Both the position numbers and the translations under genes were made by a program. The notes beneath the pieces are model-generated. The model searched no databases and was not told the origin of the DNA. It saw only the letters and a program-made list of their open reading frames with translations. Positions 12,458-23,565 of a stretch of DNA of 64,000 bases are shown in pieces. Source of the stretch: Verrucomicrobiia bacterium (lineage in GTDB: Bacteria > Verrucomicrobiota > Verrucomicrobiia > Opitutales > Opitutaceae); NCBI GenBank assembly GCA_011525695.1, contig WYBX01000022.1, positions 1-64,000 on the forward strand, written 5' to 3'. Each line of letters starts with the position of its first letter. Positions within the stretch are counted from its first letter, which is position 1.

Positions 12458-13819
12458 ATGAAGATTTGTTGCATTGGCGCTGGCTACGTCGGCGGTCCGA
12501 CAATGGCGATGATTGCCCTCAAGGTCCCGGAGATCGAAGTCCGGGTCGTCGACATGAACCGGGAGCGAATCGAGGCCTGGAACTCGGCGACGCTGCCGAT
12601 TTATGAGCCGGGGCTCGAGGAGGTGGTTGGGCAGACCCGCGGCCGGAACCTGCATTTTTCCACCGACGTTGCCGGGGCGATCAAGGCGGCGGACATGATC
12701 TTCGTGGCGGTCAACACGCCGACGAAGACCTACGGGGTGGGGGCGGGCCGGGCGGCGGACCTGCGGTTCATCGAGTCGGTGGCCCGGACGATCGCGGAGC
12801 ATGCCAACGGGCCGAAGATCATCGTCGAGAAATCCACCATCCCGGTGAAGACGGCCGAGACCATCAAGGAGATCCTCGCCGCGAACGCCCGGGGGCATCA
12901 TTTCGAGGTGCTTTCCAACCCGGAGTTCCTGGCGGAGGGCACGGCGATGGCCGACCTGCTGGCGCCGGACCGGGTTCTGATTGGTGGTGAGCGGACCAGC
13001 GGCGGCGCAGCGGCGGTGCGCGTTTTGGCCGACATCTACGCCCGTTGGGTGCAGCGTGATCGGATCATCACGACCAATTTATGGTCCTCCGAACTCTCGA
13101 AACTCGTCGCCAACGCGTTCCTGGCGCAGCGAATCTCGTCGATCAACTCGGTCTCGGCCCTGTGTGAGGCGACGGGGGCGGACGTCGATGAGGTGGCACA
13201 CGCGATCGGGAAGGATTCGAGAATCGGGCCGAAGTTCCTGAAGGCCTCAGTGGGATTCGGCGGATCCTGTTTTCAGAAGGACATCCTCAACCTCGTGTAC
13301 CTCTGCGAGCACTTCGGGCTGCCGGAGGTGGCGGCTTACTGGGAAAGTGTCGTGAAGATGAACGACTGGCAGAAGCGACGTTTCACCGGCCGGATTGTCC
13401 GCTCCTTGTTCAATTCGGTGGCGGACAAGAAAATCGCGGTGCTCGGTTTCGCTTTCAAGAAGGACACGAACGACACCCGTGAGTCCGCGGCCATCTCCGT
13501 CTGCCGCGAGTTGCTCGGCGAGCTGGCGCAGGTCGTGGTCTACGATCCCAAGGTGCCGGCGGAACAGATCCGGGCGGAGGTGCTCGGCCGGGGGCAGGAA
13601 AACAGCCGGCTCGTGGTCGCGTCCAGTGCCTGCGAGGCCACCCAGGGTGCGCATGCGCTGGCGGTGGTCACGGAGTGGGATGAGTTCAAGGCGCTCGATT
13701 TCGAAGCCATTTTCGCGGGGATGCAGCAGCCGGCGTTTGTCTTTGACGGGCGCAACATCCTCGATCTCCCCAAGCTCAAGGCGATCGGCTTCCGCGTGTG
13801 CGGCATCGGCAAGTGCTGA
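12458..13819 (+). CDS. ugd: UDP-glucose 6-dehydrogenase
   Basis: The 453-residue enzyme oxidises UDP-glucose twice with NAD+ to give UDP-glucuronate. It has the N-terminal dinucleotide fold [12 protein letters not shown], the conserved VEKSTIPV stretch, and the catalytic Cys271 in [10 protein letters not shown], with a C-terminal domain containing [13 protein letters not shown]. The motif order and the [14 protein letters not shown] insertion resemble the animal/plant-like UGDH branch more than the short bacterial RkpK type. UDP-glucuronate could feed the polysaccharide cluster beyond 37.9 kb; that link is inference. It converges with the giant repeat gene, with only 14 bp between the stops. 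Confidence 0.94.
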
Positions 13820-13833
13820 GGCCGGGCGGCCTT

Positions 13834-16800
13834 TTAGTGGCCGGCCGGAATCCGCTGGCGCCACCGGTAGCCCAGCAGGGCGAGGACCATGCCGGTCATA
13901 ATCGCGCCATAGGTGGCGGGTTCGGGGGCCGGTGTGATCTGCCGGTCGTACGATTGCCAGGCGGTCGATTCGTTCGAGAATCCGCCAAAGGAAATCTGGT
14001 CCTGCGGGGGAACTCCGCGCACGTCCGGCGTTGCCGGGGTCGTGACCATCGTCGTGGTATTCAGCCCGAAGAGGGCGCCGGAGGCATAGAAGAAGTCCTG
14101 CAGGTCGACCCAGTTGTTGATGGTGAGGATCGCGCCATCCTCGAGAATCACGCTGGTGGCGGTGAGCACCGACGCCACGCTGCTGCCAAAGTCCAGGATC
14201 GTATTGCCGGAGATCCGCAGCGTATCCACGGTGAGGTTGACGCCGGCCAGCGCGAGCGTGCCGCCCGTCAGCTTTAGTTCGCCAGCAAAAGAGAAGCTCT
14301 GATCGAAAGTGAGCGTGCCGGTGCCAATCTTCTCGAACACGCCGGTGCCGGCGATGGCGCCGGCAAAGGTCGACGTGGCATTGCCGGCGCCGACCACCAG
14401 CCGGCCGGTGCCGAGCGAGATATCTCCGGCGCCGGCAAGCGCCCCAATCGTCTGCGTCAGATTGTTCAGATCGAAGGTGGCGCCGCTGCTGATCGTCAGC
14501 GCGCCGGTGGAGGAGATCGCGTTGCTGATGCCGAGCCTGAGGGTGCCGCCGGTGATGGAGGTGCCCCCTGTGAACGTGTTGGCGCCCGAAAGCGTGAGTG
14601 TGCCGACTCCCTGTTTGGTGAGCGAACCGTTACCGGAAATCACGCCGGAATAAGTGCCGTTGGAGGCCTGGTCGAACACGACGGAGGCATTGTTGCTGAT
14701 GTTGCCCTGGAGGCTGGTGGTGCTGCCCTGGAGTGCGCCGGTCGAGACCGTCGTGCCGCCGGAATAGGTGTTCGCCCCGGTAAGGACGAGGGTCCCGACG
14801 CCGGTCTTGGTCAGCCCGCCGGAGCCTGAGACCACGCCGGCCAGCGTCGACGTGTATACATTGGAATCAAACGTGCCTCCACCCGGGCTGAGGACGACCG
14901 CCCGTGTCGACGAGATCCCGCCCGTTGCCTGCAACGTCCCGCCGGCGAAGGTCAGCGTTCCAGACGAATTTCCCAGATTCGCCTCGGAGCCGACGGCAAC
15001 CGTGCCCGTGTTGATCGTGACGCCGCCGGTAAACGTATTCGTGCCGGAAAGCGTGAGCGTGCCGGCGCCGGTCTTCGTCAGCCCGCCGCTGCCCGAAATC
15101 ACTCCGGAAAATGTCGAATTGAATCCGTTCGAATCGATCGTGCCCCCGGCGGCGGCCAGGCTGACGGACCGTGCCGCGGTGATGCCGGCCGTGGTGCGGA
15201 GGGTGCCGCCGCCGAAGGCCAGCGCGCCGGATGAATCGCCCAGATTCGAGTCGCTGCCCACCGACACGGTCCCCGCGTTGATCGAAACGCCGCCGGTGAA
15301 GGTGTTTGTTCCACTGAGGGTGAGAAGGCCGCTGCCAACTTTGGTGATGCCGCCCGAGCCGTTGCCGATGGCCGCGCTGATGGTCGTGTCATGGGCGCCG
15401 TCCACCGTCAGGGTGTAGGTGTTGTTCGTGACCGTGGCCCCGGTGATCAGGAGATTTCCGCTTTGGGCGTTCCAGGTCTGGCCGGCGCTGAGATAGACGG
15501 GGACGTTCAGCGTCTGTGCATTCGTGGACTCGTTCAAAACCCCGCCGCCGCCGATCGTGAGCGTATCCCCCGTGCTGCTGTTGATGGTGAAGGCTCCGGC
15601 ATCGCCGCGGAACAGGAGGCTCTTGATTTGGAAGGCGCCATCCATGTCGTTCGTGGTCTGGGTCGTGCCCGCCATGATGATTGCCTTCACTGACGCGACC
15701 GCCGGTGCAATGCCTCCGACCCAGTTGTTCCCCTTGCTCCAGTTGTCCTGGTCGGCAGCGGGCCCGGTGGTCATTCCGCCGCTCCAGGTGAAGGTAGGAA
15801 TCGGGGCAATCGTGTAGAAATTGCCGTAACCGCCGATCGAACTTGTGCTGCCGGAAATCACGGCGCCAACACCGACGTTGATTCCGCTGAAGTAGACGTT
15901 GTCCAGGAAGGCTTGGCTCACGCCGTTCGTGGCGATACCAAAGGCGTCCGACCCGCTGGTCCAGTTCGATATGGTGAGCAGTCCGGTGGCCGTCCCAATA
16001 TCGCTGAGCAGAAAGTAATTTGCGGAGCCCGTCGTTCCGAAGTCGATGCTGGCGTCGGTGAAGCTCAGAAGATCGACGCGCTGAGAGAAGGCGCCGCCAA
16101 GCGAGAACGTGGTGCCGGCGCTCAGGGTGAGATCGGTGGAAGAGGAAAGCGCATCGCTGGCGCCGAGGGCGAGGCTGCCACCGCTGACGGTTGTTGCACC
16201 CGTATAGGTATTGGACCCGGAGAGCGTGAGCGTGCCCGAGTTGTCTTTGGTGAGTGAACCGGTGCCGGACATGACGCCCGAGTACGTCCCGGTGCCTGCC
16301 TGGTCGAAGACGACCGCGGCATTGTTGGTGATGTTGCCCTGGAGGCTGGTCGTGCTGCCCTGAAGAGTGCCGGCGCTGACGGTGGTGCCGCCGGAATAGG
16401 TATTGGCGCCGGTAAGCGTGAGCGTGCCGGCGTTCTGCTTGGTGAGCGAACCCGTGCCGGACATGACGCCGGCATAGGTTCCGGCCGACGCCTGGTCGAA
16501 GACGACGGAAGCGTTGTTGGTGATGTTGCCCTGGAGGCTCGTGGTGCTTCCCTGGAGCGCGCCAGCCGAGACGGTGGTGCCGCCGGAAAAGGTGTTGGTG
16601 CCGGTAAGCGTGAGCGTGCCGGCATTCTGCTTGGTGAGCGAACCCGAGCCGGACATGACGCCGGCATAGGTCCCGGCCGACGCCTGGTCGAAGACGACGG
16701 AAGCGTTGTTGGTGATGTTGCCCTGGAGGCTGGTGGTGCTGCCCTGGAGCGCGCCAGCCGAGACGGTGGTGCCACCGGAGTAGGTATTGGCGCCGGAGAG

Positions 16801-19800
16801 GGTGAGCGTGCCGGCATTCTGCTTGGTGAGCGAACCCGAGCCGGACATGACCCCGGCATAGGTCCCGGCCGACGCCTGGTCGAAGACGACGGCCGCATTG
16901 TTGGCGATGTTGCCCGGGAGGCTGGTCGTGCTGCCCTGGAGCACGCCGGCGCTGACAGTGGTGCCGCCGGAGTAAGTGTTGGCGCCAGTGAGCGTGAGCG
17001 TGCCGCTGCCGGTCTTGGTCAGTGAGCCGCCGGTTCCGGAAATGACGCCGGCAAACGCGGTCGAGGAGTTGTCGCCGCCGGTGGTCAGGCTTCCACTACC
17101 CAACTGGACGGCAGCCGAGGCATTGCTCGAAGCAAGTGATCCGACCGTATCAGAATAACCATTCAAGTTCAGGACGGGCGTGCCGGTGGCATCCAGCGTG
17201 ATCGCCGAGGAATCCGCAACTTGGTTAGCTGCCAGCCACCGGACCGTTGCTGAACCGGAGCCATCGCCCACAATGAGATTGCCGGCAAGGGCATTCACGC
17301 TGCCCGTCTTCGAGAGATCGAGCGTGCCGGCATTCACGGTCGTGATTCCCGTGTAGGTGTTGGCGGTCGTGCCGGCCAGCGTCAGCGTGCCGGACTGGAG
17401 CGTGACATTGCCCGTGCCGGAGATGGCTCCGGAATAGGTGTTGGCTCCGGATGCGCTGGCCAGCGAGCCGTCGAGCGCCAGCGCCTCCGCGCCGATGCTG
17501 ATGTCGTTCTGGAGCTGCAGGGTCGCTCCGGCCTGGACCGTGGTTCCACCAGCCGTTGTGCCCAGGGCATTGGAATGCGTCGCAATCAGCGTTCCTTCCT
17601 CGATGGTGGTGGCTCCCGTGTAGGTGTTCGAGCCGGACAGCGTGAAGGTGCCTGTCCCCTCCTTGGTCAGCGATCCCCCACTGCCTGAAATCACGCCGGC
17701 AAAAGCGGTCGAACTGCCATCGCCACCCGTCGTCAGCGTTCCGGAGCCGAGTTGGATCCCGGCGCTGGCATTCGCGGACGCGATCGAACCGATGGTTTCG
17801 GTGTATCCGTTGAGATCGAATGTGGGAGTGCCTCCGGTCTGCAGGATGACGGCGGAGGTGTCGGCGATTTGCCCATTTGCCAGGAGTCGGGCCGTGGCCG
17901 CCCCGCTGCCATCGCCGATGACGAGGTTGCCAGCGAGGGCGGTGACACCGGACGATTTTCCAAGTTGGAGCGTGCCGGCATTGACGGTCGTGACGCCGGT
18001 GTAGGTGTTGGCCGAAGTGCCGGAGAGAGTGAGTGAGCCGCCGTCGACGTTCACCACGCCATTTCCCGAGATGGCGCCGCCAAAGCTGTTGGTGCCGGAG
18101 GCGTTCACCAGGGTGCCATTCAGCGCGAGCGCTTCGGCGCCGACCGCGATGTCGTTTTCCAGCTGAACGATCGCTCCGCTTGCCACGCTGGTTCCCGCTG
18201 AGGTATCGCCCAGCGCGGTCGAGTGGCTGAGAATGGCCGTGCCGGCATTGATGGTCGTCTCGCCGGCGTAGGTGTTGGCACCGGCGAGTTCGAGCGTGCC
18301 AGTCCCGACCTTGTTGATCCCGCCGTCACCGGAGATCGCGCCGTTCAGGCTCAGCGCGCCGGCCCCGCTGGTTTCCACGATGGTCGTGGAATCCAGCACA
18401 AGCGGAATGTTCACAGTCTGCGCGTTCGACGAGAGCTGAATGATCCCGGGCACGACGCCGCCAAACGTGAGTGCATTGGAACCGGTCGCGTTCAGGGTGA
18501 AGGACCCGGCGGTGGCATTGAAGCGAAGGGTGTTGATGTCGTAGCTCGCATCCATCGACGGCGCGAGCGCTTCCGTTCCGTCAAATGCAACCTTCAGGGT
18601 GAAGCCGCTGCTCGGGGCACTGTTGCCATCCCAGTTTGCGCCGGTGGTCCAGTTGTCGCTGTTCGGATGGCCGCCGTCCCAGGTCACGAACGCAGTGGTG
18701 TCGGGGGTGATGAAGTCCCAGGTCCCCGAATAGCCGGCGAGCGACTGGCCGGTGGCACCGAGCACGCCGGCACCGATCCCGTAGAAGTAAACGCCGCTGA
18801 CGTAACCTGAATCGACCCCAAGCGCGCCGGTCTGGAACGCAAAGCGATCACCTTCGCCAGAATTGAAGTGGTTGACCGTCAGGGTGCCGGTGCTCGCTCC
18901 GCCGCCGGTGAACAGGAAATAGTTCGTGGATGCGGTCGCTCCGAAATCGATGATCGCGGTGTGGTAATCGAAGGTCGCCACCTGGACGGAATAGCCGTCC
19001 AGCGCGAGGGTGGTGCCGGAGTTCAGCGTCAAGTTGCTGGCGGCTGACAGCGAGTTGTTGGCTCCGACGGCAAGCATTCCTGCGTCAACGGTCGTTGCCC
19101 CCGTATAGGTGTTCGCCCCCGACAGCGTGAGGGTCCCGGTGTTCTGCTTGGTGAGCGAGCCCGACCCAGAGACGACGCCGGAGTATGTGCCTGAGCCGGA
19201 TTGGTCGAAGACGACGGAGGCATTGTTGGTGATGTTGCCCTGGAGGCTCGTGGTCGTGCCCTGGAGTGTACCGGCTGAGACGGTCGTGCCGCCGGAATAG
19301 GTGTTGGGGCCGGTCAGGGTGAGCGTGCCGGTGTTGAGCTTCGTGAGGGCGCCGGAGCCGGTCATCGTGCCGGCATAGGTGCCGGCGCCGGACTGATCGA
19401 AGACGACGGAGGCGTTGTTGGTGATGTTGCCTTGGAGACTCGTCGTCGTGCCTTGGAGGGTGCCGGCCGAGACGGTGGTGCCGCCCGAGTAAGTGTTGCT
19501 GCCGGTCAGGGTGAGGGTTCCGCTGTTGAGCTTCGTGAGGGCGCCGGAGCCGGTCATCGTGCCGGCATAGGTGCCGGCGCCGGACTGGTCGAAGACGACG
19601 GAGGCATTGTTGGTGATGTTGCCCTGAAGGCTCGTTGTGCTGCCCTGGAGAATGCCTGCGGAGACCGTTGTGCCACCAGAATAGGTGTTGGAGCCGGTCA
19701 GGGTGAGCGTGCCGGAGTTGGCCTTTGTGAAGGAGCCGGTGCCGGACATCGCGCCCGCGTAGGTGCCGGACGAAGCCTGATCAAAGGTGACCGCGGCATT

Positions 19801-21651
19801 GTTGACGATGGCACCCTGCAAACTCGTCGTATCGCCGACGAGGAGCCCACCGCTGACCGTGGTGCCGCCCGAGTAGGTATTCGGGCCGGTCAGGGTCAGC
19901 GTGCCGGCGCTCTGTTTGGACAGTGAGCCGGTTCCGGACATGATGCCGGAGTAGGTGCCCGAGCCGGATTGGTCGAAGACGACGGAGGCGTTGTTGCTGA
20001 TGTTGCCCTGGAGGCTGGTGGTGTTGCCCTGCAGGGTGCCGGCAGAGACTGTCGTTCCGCCGGAATAGCTGTTGGCGCCGGAGAGGGTGAGCGTGCCCGT
20101 ACCCGTCTTCACCAGGCCGCCGGTGCCGCTGATTCCTCCGGAAAAGCTCGTGCTGGCGTTTGTGCCGCCCGCGGTCAGCGAGTAGCTACCGAGGACGATG
20201 CTGCCGGCGCCAGCGAACGAACCCACGGTTTCGGACGCGGCGCCCAGTTCCAGCGTGCCGCCCGAAGCAATGGACAGCGCGGTTGAATCGTGGAGCGTTC
20301 CGGTCGCGTTTCCGAGGATGAGCGTGCCGGCATTGATCGTGGTGGCGCCGGTGTACGTATTCTGCCCCGAGAGGGTGAGCGATCCGACGTTGTCCTTCGT
20401 GAACGCCCCAGTGCCAGACATGACGCCGGCATAGGTTCCCGGACCGGATTGGTCGAAGACGACGGAGGCGTTGTTGGTGATGGCGCCCTGCAGGCTGGTG
20501 GTGTTCCCCTGGAGGATTCCGCCACTGACCGTCGTGCCGCCGGTATACGTGTTGGCGCCGGTCAGGGTGAGCGTGCCGGAGCCGGTCTTCCCGAGTCCGC
20601 CAGCTCCCGTGATTGCCCCGGAAAATGTCGTCGAGGCGTCCGTGCCGCCGGCCGTGAGTGTGTAGCTGCCCAGACTGATGCTTCCGGCGCCGGCGAAGGA
20701 TCCGATGGTCTCCGGTGCGGCCGTGAGCTGGAACGTGGCGCCTGACGAGACGGTGACGGCGGTCGTATCCGCAAGTGAACCACCAGAGCCGAGTGCCAGG
20801 GTTCCCGCTTCAACCGACGTCGCTCCGGAGAAGGTGTTGGCGCCAGCCAGAGTCACAATGCCCGTGTCCTGCTTCTGGAGCGAACCGGTCCCGGAGATCA
20901 CACCGCTGTACGCGCCGTTTAAGGACTGGCTGAACACCAGTGACGCGTTGTTCAGGATATTTCCCTGCAGGCTCGTAGTCGTCCCGATCAACGTTCCCGC
21001 GCTGACGGTCGTTCCGCCGGAATAGGAATTCGCTCCGGAAAGAGTCAGGGATCCGGCGCCAGACTTCATGAGCGTGCCCGTCCCTGAGATGACGCCGCTC
21101 ATCGAAGTATCTGATCCCCCCGCGATCGTCAGGGCATTCGCGCCGAGGGCCACCGTGCCACTGAATGAAAGATTCGCGGTATTCGCGGACCACGTCTGAT
21201 CTGCCGCCACGATCAGCGCATTCGCAAAGGAAGCGGCGAAGTCCGAATCATTGGCAATCGCCGAGGCCAGCGACGTTCCCTGCAGGGTGACTGTGTCACC
21301 TTCGATCACGAATGCGCCGGCAAACGAGTTGAACGTGATCGAATTAACATTCCACGCGCCGTCCGCATTGTTCGTCAGGCGGACGGTGCCGGTGAAGACC
21401 AGGTCGGCTGTCCCGTTGTTCGCCGGAGCGCCGTTTGGATTCCAGTTCTGGCTCAGCGACCACTTGGCCTGGCCCGGATGCCCGCCGTCCCAGGTGAAGG
21501 TGGCTGCCCCGAGCGGGAACGCGGCGAAAACGGCTGCGGATATCCACCCGCCAACCAGCCGGCGACAGCATCTGTTCGCGGGCAAGAGGAAACCTGGCTC
21601 ACCATGGGCACGGTGAGTTGCTGCACTGCGTTGGGGTGGGGCCAACCGCAT
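13834..21651 (-). CDS. Giant secreted beta-strand-repeat protein with PEP-CTERM anchor
   Basis: The 2605-residue protein has a signal-like region (residues about 33-50) and then three super-modules. Each opens with a W(D/S)GG....NW...NW header (near residues 54, 990 and 1955). Each continues through autotransporter-associated beta-strand repeats of the type GTLTLTGANTYSGGTTVSAG and closes with an 'IDFG...L.I.NW..' domain. Such PATR repeats form parallel beta-helices in secreted proteins. There is no autotransporter barrel; instead the end reads PAPEPATYG, a hydrophobic helix and an RWRQR cluster, a PEP-CTERM signal cut by exosortases. Many repeats are 64 residues (192 bp) and nearly identical. 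The ATG at 21651 is preferred; the frame is open to a TTG at 21693. Likely a surface or matrix protein. Confidence 0.88.
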   Translation of the reverse strand: MRLAPPQRSAATHRAHGEPGFLLPANRCCRRLVGGWISAAVFAAFPLGAATFTWDGGHPGQAKWSLSQNWNPNGAPANNGTADLVFTGTVRLTNNADGAWNVNSITFNSFAGAFVIEGDTVTLQGTSLASAIANDSDFAASFANALIVAADQTWSANTANLSFSGTVALGANALTIAGGSDTSMSGVISGTGTLMKSGAGSLTLSGANSYSGGTTVSAGTLIGTTTSLQGNILNNASLVFSQSLNGAYSGVISGTGSLQKQDTGIVTLAGANTFSGATSVEAGTLALGSGGSLADTTAVTVSSGATFQLTAAPETIGSFAGAGSISLGSYTLTAGGTDASTTFSGAITGAGGLGKTGSGTLTLTGANTYTGGTTVSGGILQGNTTSLQGAITNNASVVFDQSGPGTYAGVMSGTGAFTKDNVGSLTLSGQNTYTGATTINAGTLILGNATGTLHDSTALSIASGGTLELGAASETVGSFAGAGSIVLGSYSLTAGGTNASTSFSGGISGTGGLVKTGTGTLTLSGANSYSGGTTVSAGTLQGNTTSLQGNISNNASVVFDQSGSGTYSGIMSGTGSLSKQSAGTLTLTGPNTYSGGTTVSGGLLVGDTTSLQGAIVNNAAVTFDQASSGTYAGAMSGTGSFTKANSGTLTLTGSNTYSGGTTVSAGILQGSTTSLQGNITNNASVVFDQSGAGTYAGTMTGSGALTKLNSGTLTLTGSNTYSGGTTVSAGTLQGTTTSLQGNITNNASVVFDQSGAGTYAGTMTGSGALTKLNTGTLTLTGPNTYSGGTTVSAGTLQGTTTSLQGNITNNASVVFDQSGSGTYSGVVSGSGSLTKQNTGTLTLSGANTYTGATTVDAGMLAVGANNSLSAASNLTLNSGTTLALDGYSVQVATFDYHTAIIDFGATASTNYFLFTGGGASTGTLTVNHFNSGEGDRFAFQTGALGVDSGYVSGVYFYGIGAGVLGATGQSLAGYSGTWDFITPDTTAFVTWDGGHPNSDNWTTGANWDGNSAPSSGFTLKVAFDGTEALAPSMDASYDINTLRFNATAGSFTLNATGSNALTFGGVVPGIIQLSSNAQTVNIPLVLDSTTIVETSGAGALSLNGAISGDGGINKVGTGTLELAGANTYAGETTINAGTAILSHSTALGDTSAGTSVASGAIVQLENDIAVGAEALALNGTLVNASGTNSFGGAISGNGVVNVDGGSLTLSGTSANTYTGVTTVNAGTLQLGKSSGVTALAGNLVIGDGSGAATARLLANGQIADTSAVILQTGGTPTFDLNGYTETIGSIASANASAGIQLGSGTLTTGGDGSSTAFAGVISGSGGSLTKEGTGTFTLSGSNTYTGATTIEEGTLIATHSNALGTTAGGTTVQAGATLQLQNDISIGAEALALDGSLASASGANTYSGAISGTGNVTLQSGTLTLAGTTANTYTGITTVNAGTLDLSKTGSVNALAGNLIVGDGSGSATVRWLAANQVADSSAITLDATGTPVLNLNGYSDTVGSLASSNASAAVQLGSGSLTTGGDNSSTAFAGVISGTGGSLTKTGSGTLTLTGANTYSGGTTVSAGVLQGSTTSLPGNIANNAAVVFDQASAGTYAGVMSGSGSLTKQNAGTLTLSGANTYSGGTTVSAGALQGSTTSLQGNITNNASVVFDQASAGTYAGVMSGSGSLTKQNAGTLTLTGTNTFSGGTTVSAGALQGSTTSLQGNITNNASVVFDQASAGTYAGVMSGTGSLTKQNAGTLTLTGANTYSGGTTVSAGTLQGSTTSLQGNITNNAAVVFDQAGTGTYSGVMSGTGSLTKDNSGTLTLSGSNTYTGATTVSGGSLALGASDALSSSTDLTLSAGTTFSLGGAFSQRVDLLSFTDASIDFGTTGSANYFLLSDIGTATGLLTISNWTSGSDAFGIATNGVSQAFLDNVYFSGINVGVGAVISGSTSSIGGYGNFYTIAPIPTFTWSGGMTTGPAADQDNWSKGNNWVGGIAPAVASVKAIIMAGTTQTTNDMDGAFQIKSLLFRGDAGAFTINSSTGDTLTIGGGGVLNESTNAQTLNVPVYLSAGQTWNAQSGNLLITGATVTNNTYTLTVDGAHDTTISAAIGNGSGGITKVGSGLLTLSGTNTFTGGVSINAGTVSVGSDSNLGDSSGALAFGGGTLRTTAGITAARSVSLAAAGGTIDSNGFNSTFSGVISGSGGLTKTGAGTLTLSGTNTFTGGVTINTGTVAVGSEANLGNSSGTLTFAGGTLQATGGISSTRAVVLSPGGGTFDSNVYTSTLAGVVSGSGGLTKTGVGTLVLTGANTYSGGTTVSTGALQGSTTSLQGNISNNASVVFDQASNGTYSGVISGNGSLTKQGVGTLTLSGANTFTGGTSITGGTLRLGISNAISSTGALTISSGATFDLNNLTQTIGALAGAGDISLGTGRLVVGAGNATSTFAGAIAGTGVFEKIGTGTLTFDQSFSFAGELKLTGGTLALAGVNLTVDTLRISGNTILDFGSSVASVLTATSVILEDGAILTINNWVDLQDFFYASGALFGLNTTTMVTTPATPDVRGVPPQDQISFGGFSNESTAWQSYDRQITPAPEPATYGAIMTGMVLALLGYRWRQRIPAGH
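16240..17008 (-). repeat. Tandem 192-bp repeats inside the giant gene, block A (about 4 units)
   Basis: The same landmark (the start of GACGAC(G/C)G) falls at 16309, 16501, 16693 and 16885, exactly 192 bp apart. Each unit encodes one 64-residue beta-strand repeat containing SLQGNI.NNA.VVFDQA. Units at 16501 and 16693 are nearly identical at the DNA level, indicating recent duplication or gene conversion. Confidence 0.9.
19141..20100 (-). repeat. Tandem 192-bp repeats inside the giant gene, block B (about 5 units)
   Basis: Equivalent landmarks lie at 19210, 19402, 19594, 19786 and 19978, again exactly 192 bp apart, each encoding one 64-residue unit. The fourth unit has diverged most (GTGACC in place of GACGAC). 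Related single units are found near 14676, 20459 and 20930. Confidence 0.9.
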
Positions 21652-21781
21652 CGGTGCTAATCGTGCACAGTGCGCAGCAAGAAGTGAACACAAAAATGAG
21701 GTCGGAGATTACTTAAGTTCGCGTCCCACCGAGGGTTTCACAAAACGCGTATGATTAGCCCGAACAGTCCCCTTCGCTTGT

Positions 21782-22933
21782 TCAGACCCCGAGCGAAGTC
21801 TTGTAGATTCTCGGCACCCGCTTTGTCACCGACGTCAGAGTCTCCCAGGGAATCGTTTCCGCCGCCCGGCTGAACTCAGCGATCGAAATCTCCTCGTTCT
21901 GCTGTCGGCCGACCAGGACGACCGGGTCGCCGCAGCGGACATCCGGGCAATCCGTCACATCGACGATGGTTTGGTCCATGGTGACGCGGCCGAGCACGGG
22001 GCAACGGCGGCCATGAATCAGGACTTGGGCACGGTTGCTGGCCGCGCGCGGCATGCCATCGGCGTAGCCAGCGCAGAGGATCGCGACCGTCGAATCGCGT
22101 CGCAGCGTGTGGGTGCGGCCGTAACTGACCGCAGTGCCGCGGGGCAACCGCTTCACCAGTCCAACCTTGGTGTGAAAGCTGAACACTGGTTCGGTCCGGG
22201 CCTGCGCCAGGAGCGAGTCCGGTCGTGGCAGGATACCGAATTGGAGCAGCCCAACGCGAACGGCGTTGAACGGACTGGCATCGGGCATCGATTCAATTCC
22301 GGCGCTGCTGTCGGCGTGAATGAACAGTTTTCGGGGATCGACACCGTCGCATCGACTGAGCACATCGAGGAAGCGCGCGCGTTGCTCGGCGGTGAAGCCG
22401 GGATCGTCGGGGCTGGCGAAATGAGTAAAGAGTCCCGCAAGCCGCAAACGTCGCGTTCCCAGGACTTGCGCACAAAGCGCCGGCGCTTCCTCGTGCCACA
22501 CACCAGCCCGGCCCATTCCGGTGTCGATCTTCAGATGGACGGAAATCGTGCGACCCGCCCGTCCGCCGACCGCCGAGAGCCGAGCCACTTCATCCGCACT
22601 CGAGATCGTCCCGGCGAGATCCAACTCCGCCAGCGCGGAATCCTCCTCCGGGAGCAGTGGGCTGAGCACGAGGATCGGCCAGCCGGGGCCAAGCTCCCGA
22701 AGCGCGGCGGCCTCGGTCACATTCGCCACGGCAAACAAATCCGCCCCGGCATGCATCAATCGTGCCGCCACGTGGTGCAGCCCGTGCCCATAGGCATCGG
22801 CCTTGACCACTGCGACGTATCGCATCCGCGGAGGCAGCGAAGCGCGGATGAGCCGGAGATTGCGCTCCAGGGCAGCGAGATCGATTTCGGCCCAGCACCG
22901 GAGCGCGCGTGGTGGCGTGGTGGCGAAACTCAT
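21782..22933 (-). CDS. alr: Alanine racemase
   Basis: The 383-residue PLP enzyme interconverts L- and D-alanine for peptidoglycan. The PLP lysine is Lys44 in VVKADAYGHG, at the end of the first barrel strand. The second catalytic base Tyr is in CAGYADGMPR, and the C-terminal beta domain ends with ETLTSVTKRVPRIY. The ATG at 22933 overlaps the stop of the upstream tsaB gene as ATGA (22930-22933), so the pair is translationally coupled. The 130 bp after its stop separate it from the start of the giant repeat gene on the same strand and probably contain that gene's promoter. Confidence 0.94.
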   Translation of the reverse strand: MSFATTPPRALRCWAEIDLAALERNLRLIRASLPPRMRYVAVVKADAYGHGLHHVAARLMHAGADLFAVANVTEAAALRELGPGWPILVLSPLLPEEDSALAELDLAGTISSADEVARLSAVGGRAGRTISVHLKIDTGMGRAGVWHEEAPALCAQVLGTRRLRLAGLFTHFASPDDPGFTAEQRARFLDVLSRCDGVDPRKLFIHADSSAGIESMPDASPFNAVRVGLLQFGILPRPDSLLAQARTEPVFSFHTKVGLVKRLPRGTAVSYGRTHTLRRDSTVAILCAGYADGMPRAASNRAQVLIHGRRCPVLGRVTMDQTIVDVTDCPDVRCGDPVVLVGRQQNEEISIAEFSRAAETIPWETLTSVTKRVPRIYKTSLGV

Positions 22934-23565
22934 TTTTTCAAGGGCGCAGTGTGAATCTGCGGCGTCCACTTCGCATAGCTCGGCTCCTCATGCACGAATG
23001 CGTCCGGCTCGGTCGCGGCGGAAAAGAGATCTGCATCGGCGAGACCCGGGAGCAGATCCTTGAGCGAGTACCGGTGGTGCTTCACCCCGGTGGGCAGCGG
23101 GGACCAGTGGCGGAAGGTATCGGGCGTCACCAATTCGCCCCCGAGGGATTCGGATGGCACGCGCCGCAACCCGGTGCCGAGATTGAACTGGTGCCAGGCG
23201 TCCCGCCGGGCGTCGGCGATCACGCTGACCTCGCTGCGGCCGATCGCGTGGGCAATCAAAGCCAGGCTGCAATACGCGAAGACCGGCCGGGGACGGAGGA
23301 CATTCCAGGTGCGGATGGCCATCGCGCTCGTGCGGATGCCGAGGATGGAGCCGGGGCCGTCGCAGAAGAGGAAAGCGCCGGCATCCTCCGGGTTGCGGGC
23401 GAGTTGCTCCAGGCAGCGAAACAAGGCGACGCCCGCCTCATCCCCGCTGCCGCACCACTCAGCGGCGCCTTCGCCGGCCAGCCAGCCCACCTGCACCTCG
23501 GATGAGGCCGCATCGAGCAGGAGCAGTCGCCCATGTGCAGCATGAAGTTGGCGGAGGCTGGGCAT
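22930..23565 (-). CDS. tsaB: tRNA threonylcarbamoyladenosine biosynthesis protein TsaB
   Basis: The 211-residue protein resembles TsaB, the catalytically inactive ASKHA-fold partner of TsaD needed for the t6A37 modification of ANN-decoding tRNAs. The signature GPGSILGIRTSAMAIR corresponds to the usual GPGSfTGLRiG.a segment. Sequence is divergent: the N-terminal phosphate-loop region is less canonical (LLLLDAASSEVQVG) and the C-terminal part is short and variable, as is common in the family. Start at MPSLRQLH (23565) was chosen to fit this fold. It leads a two-gene unit with alr and is divergent from tig; the 151 bp between them should hold both promoters. Confidence 0.82.
   Translation of the reverse strand: MPSLRQLHAAHGRLLLLDAASSEVQVGWLAGEGAAEWCGSGDEAGVALFRCLEQLARNPEDAGAFLFCDGPGSILGIRTSAMAIRTWNVLRPRPVFAYCSLALIAHAIGRSEVSVIADARRDAWHQFNLGTGLRRVPSESLGGELVTPDTFRHWSPLPTGVKHHRYSLKDLLPGLADADLFSAATEPDAFVHEEPSYAKWTPQIHTAPLKK

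Follow-up and report, generated by a model that had tools for sequence, protein, structure and literature searches.

Three header-repeat-closer modules in a giant PATR repeat protein with a PEP-CTERM-like tail from an Opitutaceae bacterium

We studied a giant repeat gene in a stretch of 64,000 nucleotides (the window) of contig WYBX01000022.1, from a Verrucomicrobiia bacterium of the family Opitutaceae. The question that this locus raises is how so long a chain is built and by what history it came to be so. An earlier note on the same DNA had described three units, each with a W(D/S)GG...NW header, a run of repeats and a closing domain, and had proposed a fusion or triplication of complete smaller PEP-CTERM-type proteins of which only the last kept its sorting signal. 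The gene lies at 13834-21651 on the minus strand and is a single ORF of 2605 aa from its ATG; residues are numbered here from an upstream TTG at 21693, which gives 2619 aa. The protein scored 623.7 bits with PATR (PF12951, Pfam) and 589.9 bits with TIGR02601 (NCBIfam), with 24 stretches above the curated cut-off in each case, and is by these repeats a PATR/TIGR02601 protein. It consists of a header, PATR repeats and a closer, three times over, as follows:

13834..21651, minus strand: whole gene, three-module PATR repeat protein (ORF and Pfam/NCBIfam repeats)
21505..21651, minus strand: putative signal peptide, with a long n-region, a hydrophobic stretch and ...GAA ahead of header 1 (read from the sequence)
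21148..21507, minus strand: header 1, residues 63-182 (pairwise alignment and header models)
19039..21147, minus strand: module 1 repeats, spaced 64-95-64-96-(64x5), 703 residues (repeat-anchor spacing)
19120..20079, minus strand: run of five 64-aa units in module 1, where relatives have one (TRF, unit comparison and anchor spacing)
18694..19038, minus strand: closer 1, internal type, residues 886-1000 (pairwise alignment and closer models)
18331..18696, minus strand: header 2, residues 1000-1121 (pairwise alignment and header models)
16138..18330, minus strand: module 2 repeats, spaced 89-127-89-127-(64x4), 731 residues (repeat-anchor spacing)
16219..16986, minus strand: four 64-aa units of module 2, absent from module 2 of L168 and L169
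15793..16137, minus strand: closer 2, internal type, residues 1853-1967 (pairwise alignment and closer models)
15427..15801, minus strand: header 3, residues 1965-2089 (pairwise alignment and header models)
14296..15426, minus strand: module 3 repeats, spaced 89-89-64, plus degenerate coils (repeat-anchor spacing)
13927..14295, minus strand: closer 3, terminal type, residues 2467-2589 (closer models and closer tree)
13837..13932, minus strand: PEP-CTERM-like tail, residues 2588-2619, with PAPEPATYG, a hydrophobic helix and a basic end (below the Pfam cut-off)

The reading that we prefer, at a probability of roughly 0.68, is that of an exported protein of three capped beta-helix rods in series, with an old Opitutaceae layout in which two modules were later lengthened.

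Pairwise alignment of the three headers gave Z values of 15.8-20.9 against shuffles, and none of 586 repeat-window comparisons was as good (0/586). To keep the test from being circular, header and closer models were also built anew from sets that excluded the three-module proteins and the paralogs in the window's genome. The independent header model scored headers 1, 2 and 3 at 62.5, 97.8 and 57.7 bits, compared with maxima of 6.9 among repeat tiles and 15.2 among 3000 shuffles, and the three headers described earlier are thus borne out by both methods (58-98 bits in the second).

The closing domains gave a divided result. Closers 1 and 2 aligned with Z 17.7 and no repeat window did as well (0/586), but closer 3 reached only Z 3.0 with closer 1 and Z 4.2 with closer 2, alignments that 200/586 and 97/586 repeat windows, respectively, equalled or bettered. 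Judged against beta-helix segments, as the earlier note had asked, closer 3 thus fails in pairwise comparison. The independent internal-closer model gave 56.8, 80.2 and 27.1 bits for closers 1, 2 and 3 (best repeat tile, 22.1; shuffle maximum, 10.4), and a terminal-closer model gave 139 bits for closer 3 and only 15.5 and 19.1 for closers 1 and 2. These scores point to two closer subtypes that are distantly related. The internal and terminal profiles aligned to each other (hhalign, 94.5% over 62 columns), and a scan of the genome with the internal-type profile found closer 3 at E 4e-4. In the closer tree, internal closers grouped with the closers that end single-module PEP-CTERM proteins in other orders and families (support 100/97), and closer 3 fell among Opitutaceae terminal closers on the opposite side of that same branch. 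The homology claimed for all three closing domains therefore stands for closers 1 and 2; on sequence comparison it appears marginal for closer 3, which is not of the same type as the internal two, as had been supposed, but a different subtype and their distant kin at profile level. It follows that the gene does not hold three copies of one protein. A shared ancestry of headers and closers might even be an illusion created by the biased composition of beta-helices (G, T, S, N), for which the pairwise behavior of closer 3 could be cited; this is barely credible, given the wide margins by which the independent models part the three headers and closers 1 and 2 from repeat tiles and from shuffles. 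On the pairwise tests and independent models together, we rejected a composition artefact for the headers and for closers 1 and 2, but not for closer 3.

In the proteins compared, every internal closer scoring at least 60 bits (34/34) was followed by a header after no more than a few residues, and in none of these 34 cases did a PEP-CTERM tail or a signal peptide lie between the closer and the next header, in agreement with the earlier claim that only the last module carries a sorting signal. The direct joining of every such closer to a header would also suit a different idea, namely that the closer-header joint (~235 aa) forms a single domain, a spacer or hinge set into one long beta-helix, and is not the meeting of two protein ends; so would the high overall confidence with which the joint was predicted (residues 841-1176, 14 sequences; pLDDT 91.9, pTM 0.86). 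We regard a hinge domain as unlikely, since the two halves also occur apart: in single-module proteins the header follows the signal peptide, close to the N-terminus, and the closer immediately precedes the PEP-CTERM, and header-alone matches are far commoner in the phylum than whole joints.

Single-module relatives, with header, repeats, closer and PEP-CTERM, are common. One of them (C111) was found in the window's own genome, where the earlier note had suggested looking, another (L148) in the same genus, and four more (L234-L237) elsewhere in the phylum, in different orders and families. The window's genome holds five other PATR PEP-CTERM giants, C111 and C78 being two of them. A two-module protein of this genome (C78, also L040, 2563-3490) has an L-type-lectin-like N-terminal domain (PF18483, E 8e-12, below the Pfam cut-off; the one two-module relative tested). 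Two-module proteins of this lectin type are about 1500 aa long and recur across many genera; they resemble the window protein in their order of header, repeats, internal closer, header, repeats, terminal closer and PEP, and differ from it in the lectin-like domain, in having two modules and in their separate joint clade. The three-module layout was seen in L168 (Candidatus Didemnitutus), L169 (Opitutus sp.), L172 (truncated at the 5' end by the contig edge), L173 and L174, and the design occurs in at least six Opitutaceae or Opitutales species. The internal-type closer model matched 54/150 family genomes and the terminal-type model 106/150. First-joint orthologs (E < 1e-100) were present in 7/252 family genomes; among 27 genomes of the same genus, a first joint of that kind was present only in the window's genome. 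Module number varies among near relatives, as L170 has two modules. L148 (G139:C10) has one module in 604 aa, with an H1-type header and a closer that is sister to closer 3 (100/99); it is possibly a three-module gene that collapsed by internal deletion. Note also that a contig-end ORF (L122, G134:C67) has four headers and three internal closers, so that more than three modules can occur in the lineage, and that at another locus (L243/L175, G435:C99) header, internal closer and header pieces lie in differing frames within one short region, owing either to a broken gene or to sequencing errors.

The history of the modules is most visible in the trees. First joints of the three-module proteins formed one clade (99/94), second joints another (100/100) and lectin-type joints a third. 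Headers also clustered by position (H3, SH 100; H1, 94; H2, 92), in a quick tree with few columns. This positional clustering of headers and joints spans at least five genera, and identity to relatives was 40-73% at the same position and 26-50% across positions; the module order is therefore older than the split of these genera. A recent triplication, in which three copies of a complete PEP-CTERM protein arose inside the gene in this lineage, could call on the three homologous headers, the two clearly homologous closers and the likeness of the 64-aa units across modules (60-95% DNA identity). It is nevertheless very improbable, because of the positional clades, because headers within the gene share only 33-38% identity compared with 45-64% to same-position headers elsewhere, and because the module-specific repeat patterns are present in relatives too. 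We rejected it on the positional clades, unless these are alignment artefacts. The earlier proposal of a fusion or triplication of smaller PEP-CTERM proteins is thus upheld in that single-module relatives exist and internal closers group with their end closers, and is not upheld as an event in this gene. The data fit a history in which mature modules were fused and duplicated long ago, the internal-closer module probably being the one duplicated; the closer tree, from which direction and order might be read, is unrooted. The better reading is accordingly that fusion and duplication are old and that two of the modules grew afterwards.

A distinct repeat pattern is conserved in each module, in relatives too. 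The spacing of repeat anchors shared by L168 and L169 is 64-95-64-95-64 in module 1, 89-127-89-126 in module 2 and 89-64-64 in module 3, to be compared with the window spacings listed above. The header-to-closer span is 703 residues in module 1 here compared with 446, 446, 460 and 447 in relatives, and 731 in module 2 compared with 476, 473, 476, 471 and 467; each module has therefore gained about 256 residues, that is, four 64-residue units, and both are longer than in all relatives. The 64-aa units are 81-95% identical at the DNA level in module 2 and 60-88% in module 1, and TRF detected the same arrays. These copies differ enough to make an assembly artefact unlikely. The identity matrix of the units gave no clear one-to-one order between the module 1 and module 2 blocks.

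The gene stands between ugd (12458-13819, plus strand) and alr (21782-22969, minus strand). In two genomes of the same genus (G163 and G139) ugd and alr adjoin with no gene between them, and in further members of the family different PATR proteins are encoded downstream of alr or tsaB. PATR PEP-CTERM genes of varying type were often found just downstream of alr/tsaB, on the same strand, in several genera (window 13834-22969; L186, L187, L192-L194; G125:C84, G060:C1, G142:C264, G108:C425, G003:C1, G009:C26 and G113:C1). From positions alone, this site looks like a conserved or recurrent place for such genes.

The C-terminal tail has the Pro-Glu-Pro, hydrophobic helix and basic end of substrates of the PEP-CTERM/exosortase system, first met in Verrucomicrobium spinosum (Haft et al. 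2006, PMC1569441), and the genome has four exosortase genes, all over the PF09721 cut-off and all matched by NCBIfam exosortase models. The tail differs from such substrates in lying below the curated cut-offs: it scored 14.5 bits with PF07589 (Pfam cut-off, 20.7) and was absent from the TIGR02595 matches of its genome, which leaves exosortase processing uncertain. Our own PEP-CTERM tail model was seeded with this tail and with two paralog tails that pass TIGR02595. Taking together the PEP-CTERM-like tail, the exosortases, the biology of the system (PMC1569441) and the lectin-like domain of a paralog, we infer that the product is most likely an exosortase-processed, adhesin-like surface rod.

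No Pfam family matched header or closer. Attempts to name the caps failed in three ways: joint members gave scattered chance matches only in Pfam, the joint profile matched no PDB sequence, and the PDB matches of the closer profile were due to a short Gly-rich segment that recurs within designed SAKe proteins. In the joint model, the header half aligned to the beta-helix of Ag43 (4kh3; Z 11.1 over 128 residues) and the closer half to the IcsA passenger fragment 510-679 (5ke1; Z 9.0, 133 residues, 3.1 A). The C-terminal segment 2400-2619 was modelled (pLDDT 72.6) as a beta-helix to about residue 2537, a low-confidence or disordered spacer and one helix, and its best aligned chain was 4wa0, a possible adhesin C-terminal domain (Z 11.1). 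Z values of about 9-11 are little above those reached by unrelated repeat folds and Foldseek found no significant match in the PDB for either model, so that the alignments to Ag43, IcsA and 4wa0 are leads. The window protein shares its repeats with the PATR or autotransporter-associated beta-strand repeat proteins (PF12951, TIGR02601), and the halves of its modelled joint align to the passengers of IcsA and Ag43. Unlike PATR autotransporters it has three headers, three closers and a PEP-CTERM-like tail in place of a C-terminal translocator barrel, no autotransporter barrel family being matched in Pfam at E 1, and it does not classify as type Va by that barrel. It also differs from autochaperone autotransporters (IcsA, Ag43) in that its closer sits between rods. 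The published IcsA autochaperone comprises residues 606-720 (PMC5767081), which the aligned fragment overlaps in part only, and sequence searches (Pfam, joint and closer profiles) lent no support to a likeness. It is a tentative and rather doubtful idea that the closers work as folding caps in the manner of an autochaperone, in a protein that lacks the autotransporter barrel, and that each of them nucleates the beta-helix rod to which it belongs, on the outer side of the inner membrane.

Under the preferred reading of three capped rods, the header would initiate a beta-helix as its N-cap, the PATR repeats would make up the coils and the closer would terminate it, and each internal closer would lead straight into the next header, so that joints couple rod to rod; the models suggest that these fold as separate rods. 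The putative signal peptide would export the chain and the single PEP-CTERM-like tail present it to an exosortase. The product would be a single rod of great length, either held in the cell envelope or set free from it, and would most likely serve as an adhesin or matrix protein. Duplicated internal-closer modules would have been joined ahead of a terminal-closer module at a time when several Opitutaceae genera had yet to diverge, the sorting signals at the joints being left out during fusion; in the window's strain four 64-residue units would then have been added to each of modules 1 and 2, with caps and joints unmoved.

Giant PATR PEP-CTERM proteins occur commonly in Opitutaceae genomes, but no Pfam family matches what lies outside their repeats. 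The header and the two kinds of closer, internal and terminal, can be recognised as recurring domains, and together they make up a modular grammar of these proteins. Should the closers indeed be autochaperone-like, rods could be strung together and lengthened, and repeat number would set the reach of a surface fibre. The fixed parts are the caps, the joints and the module order, and the variable ones are the number of 64-residue units and the number of modules (one to three); with these known, the relation of rod length to function becomes testable.
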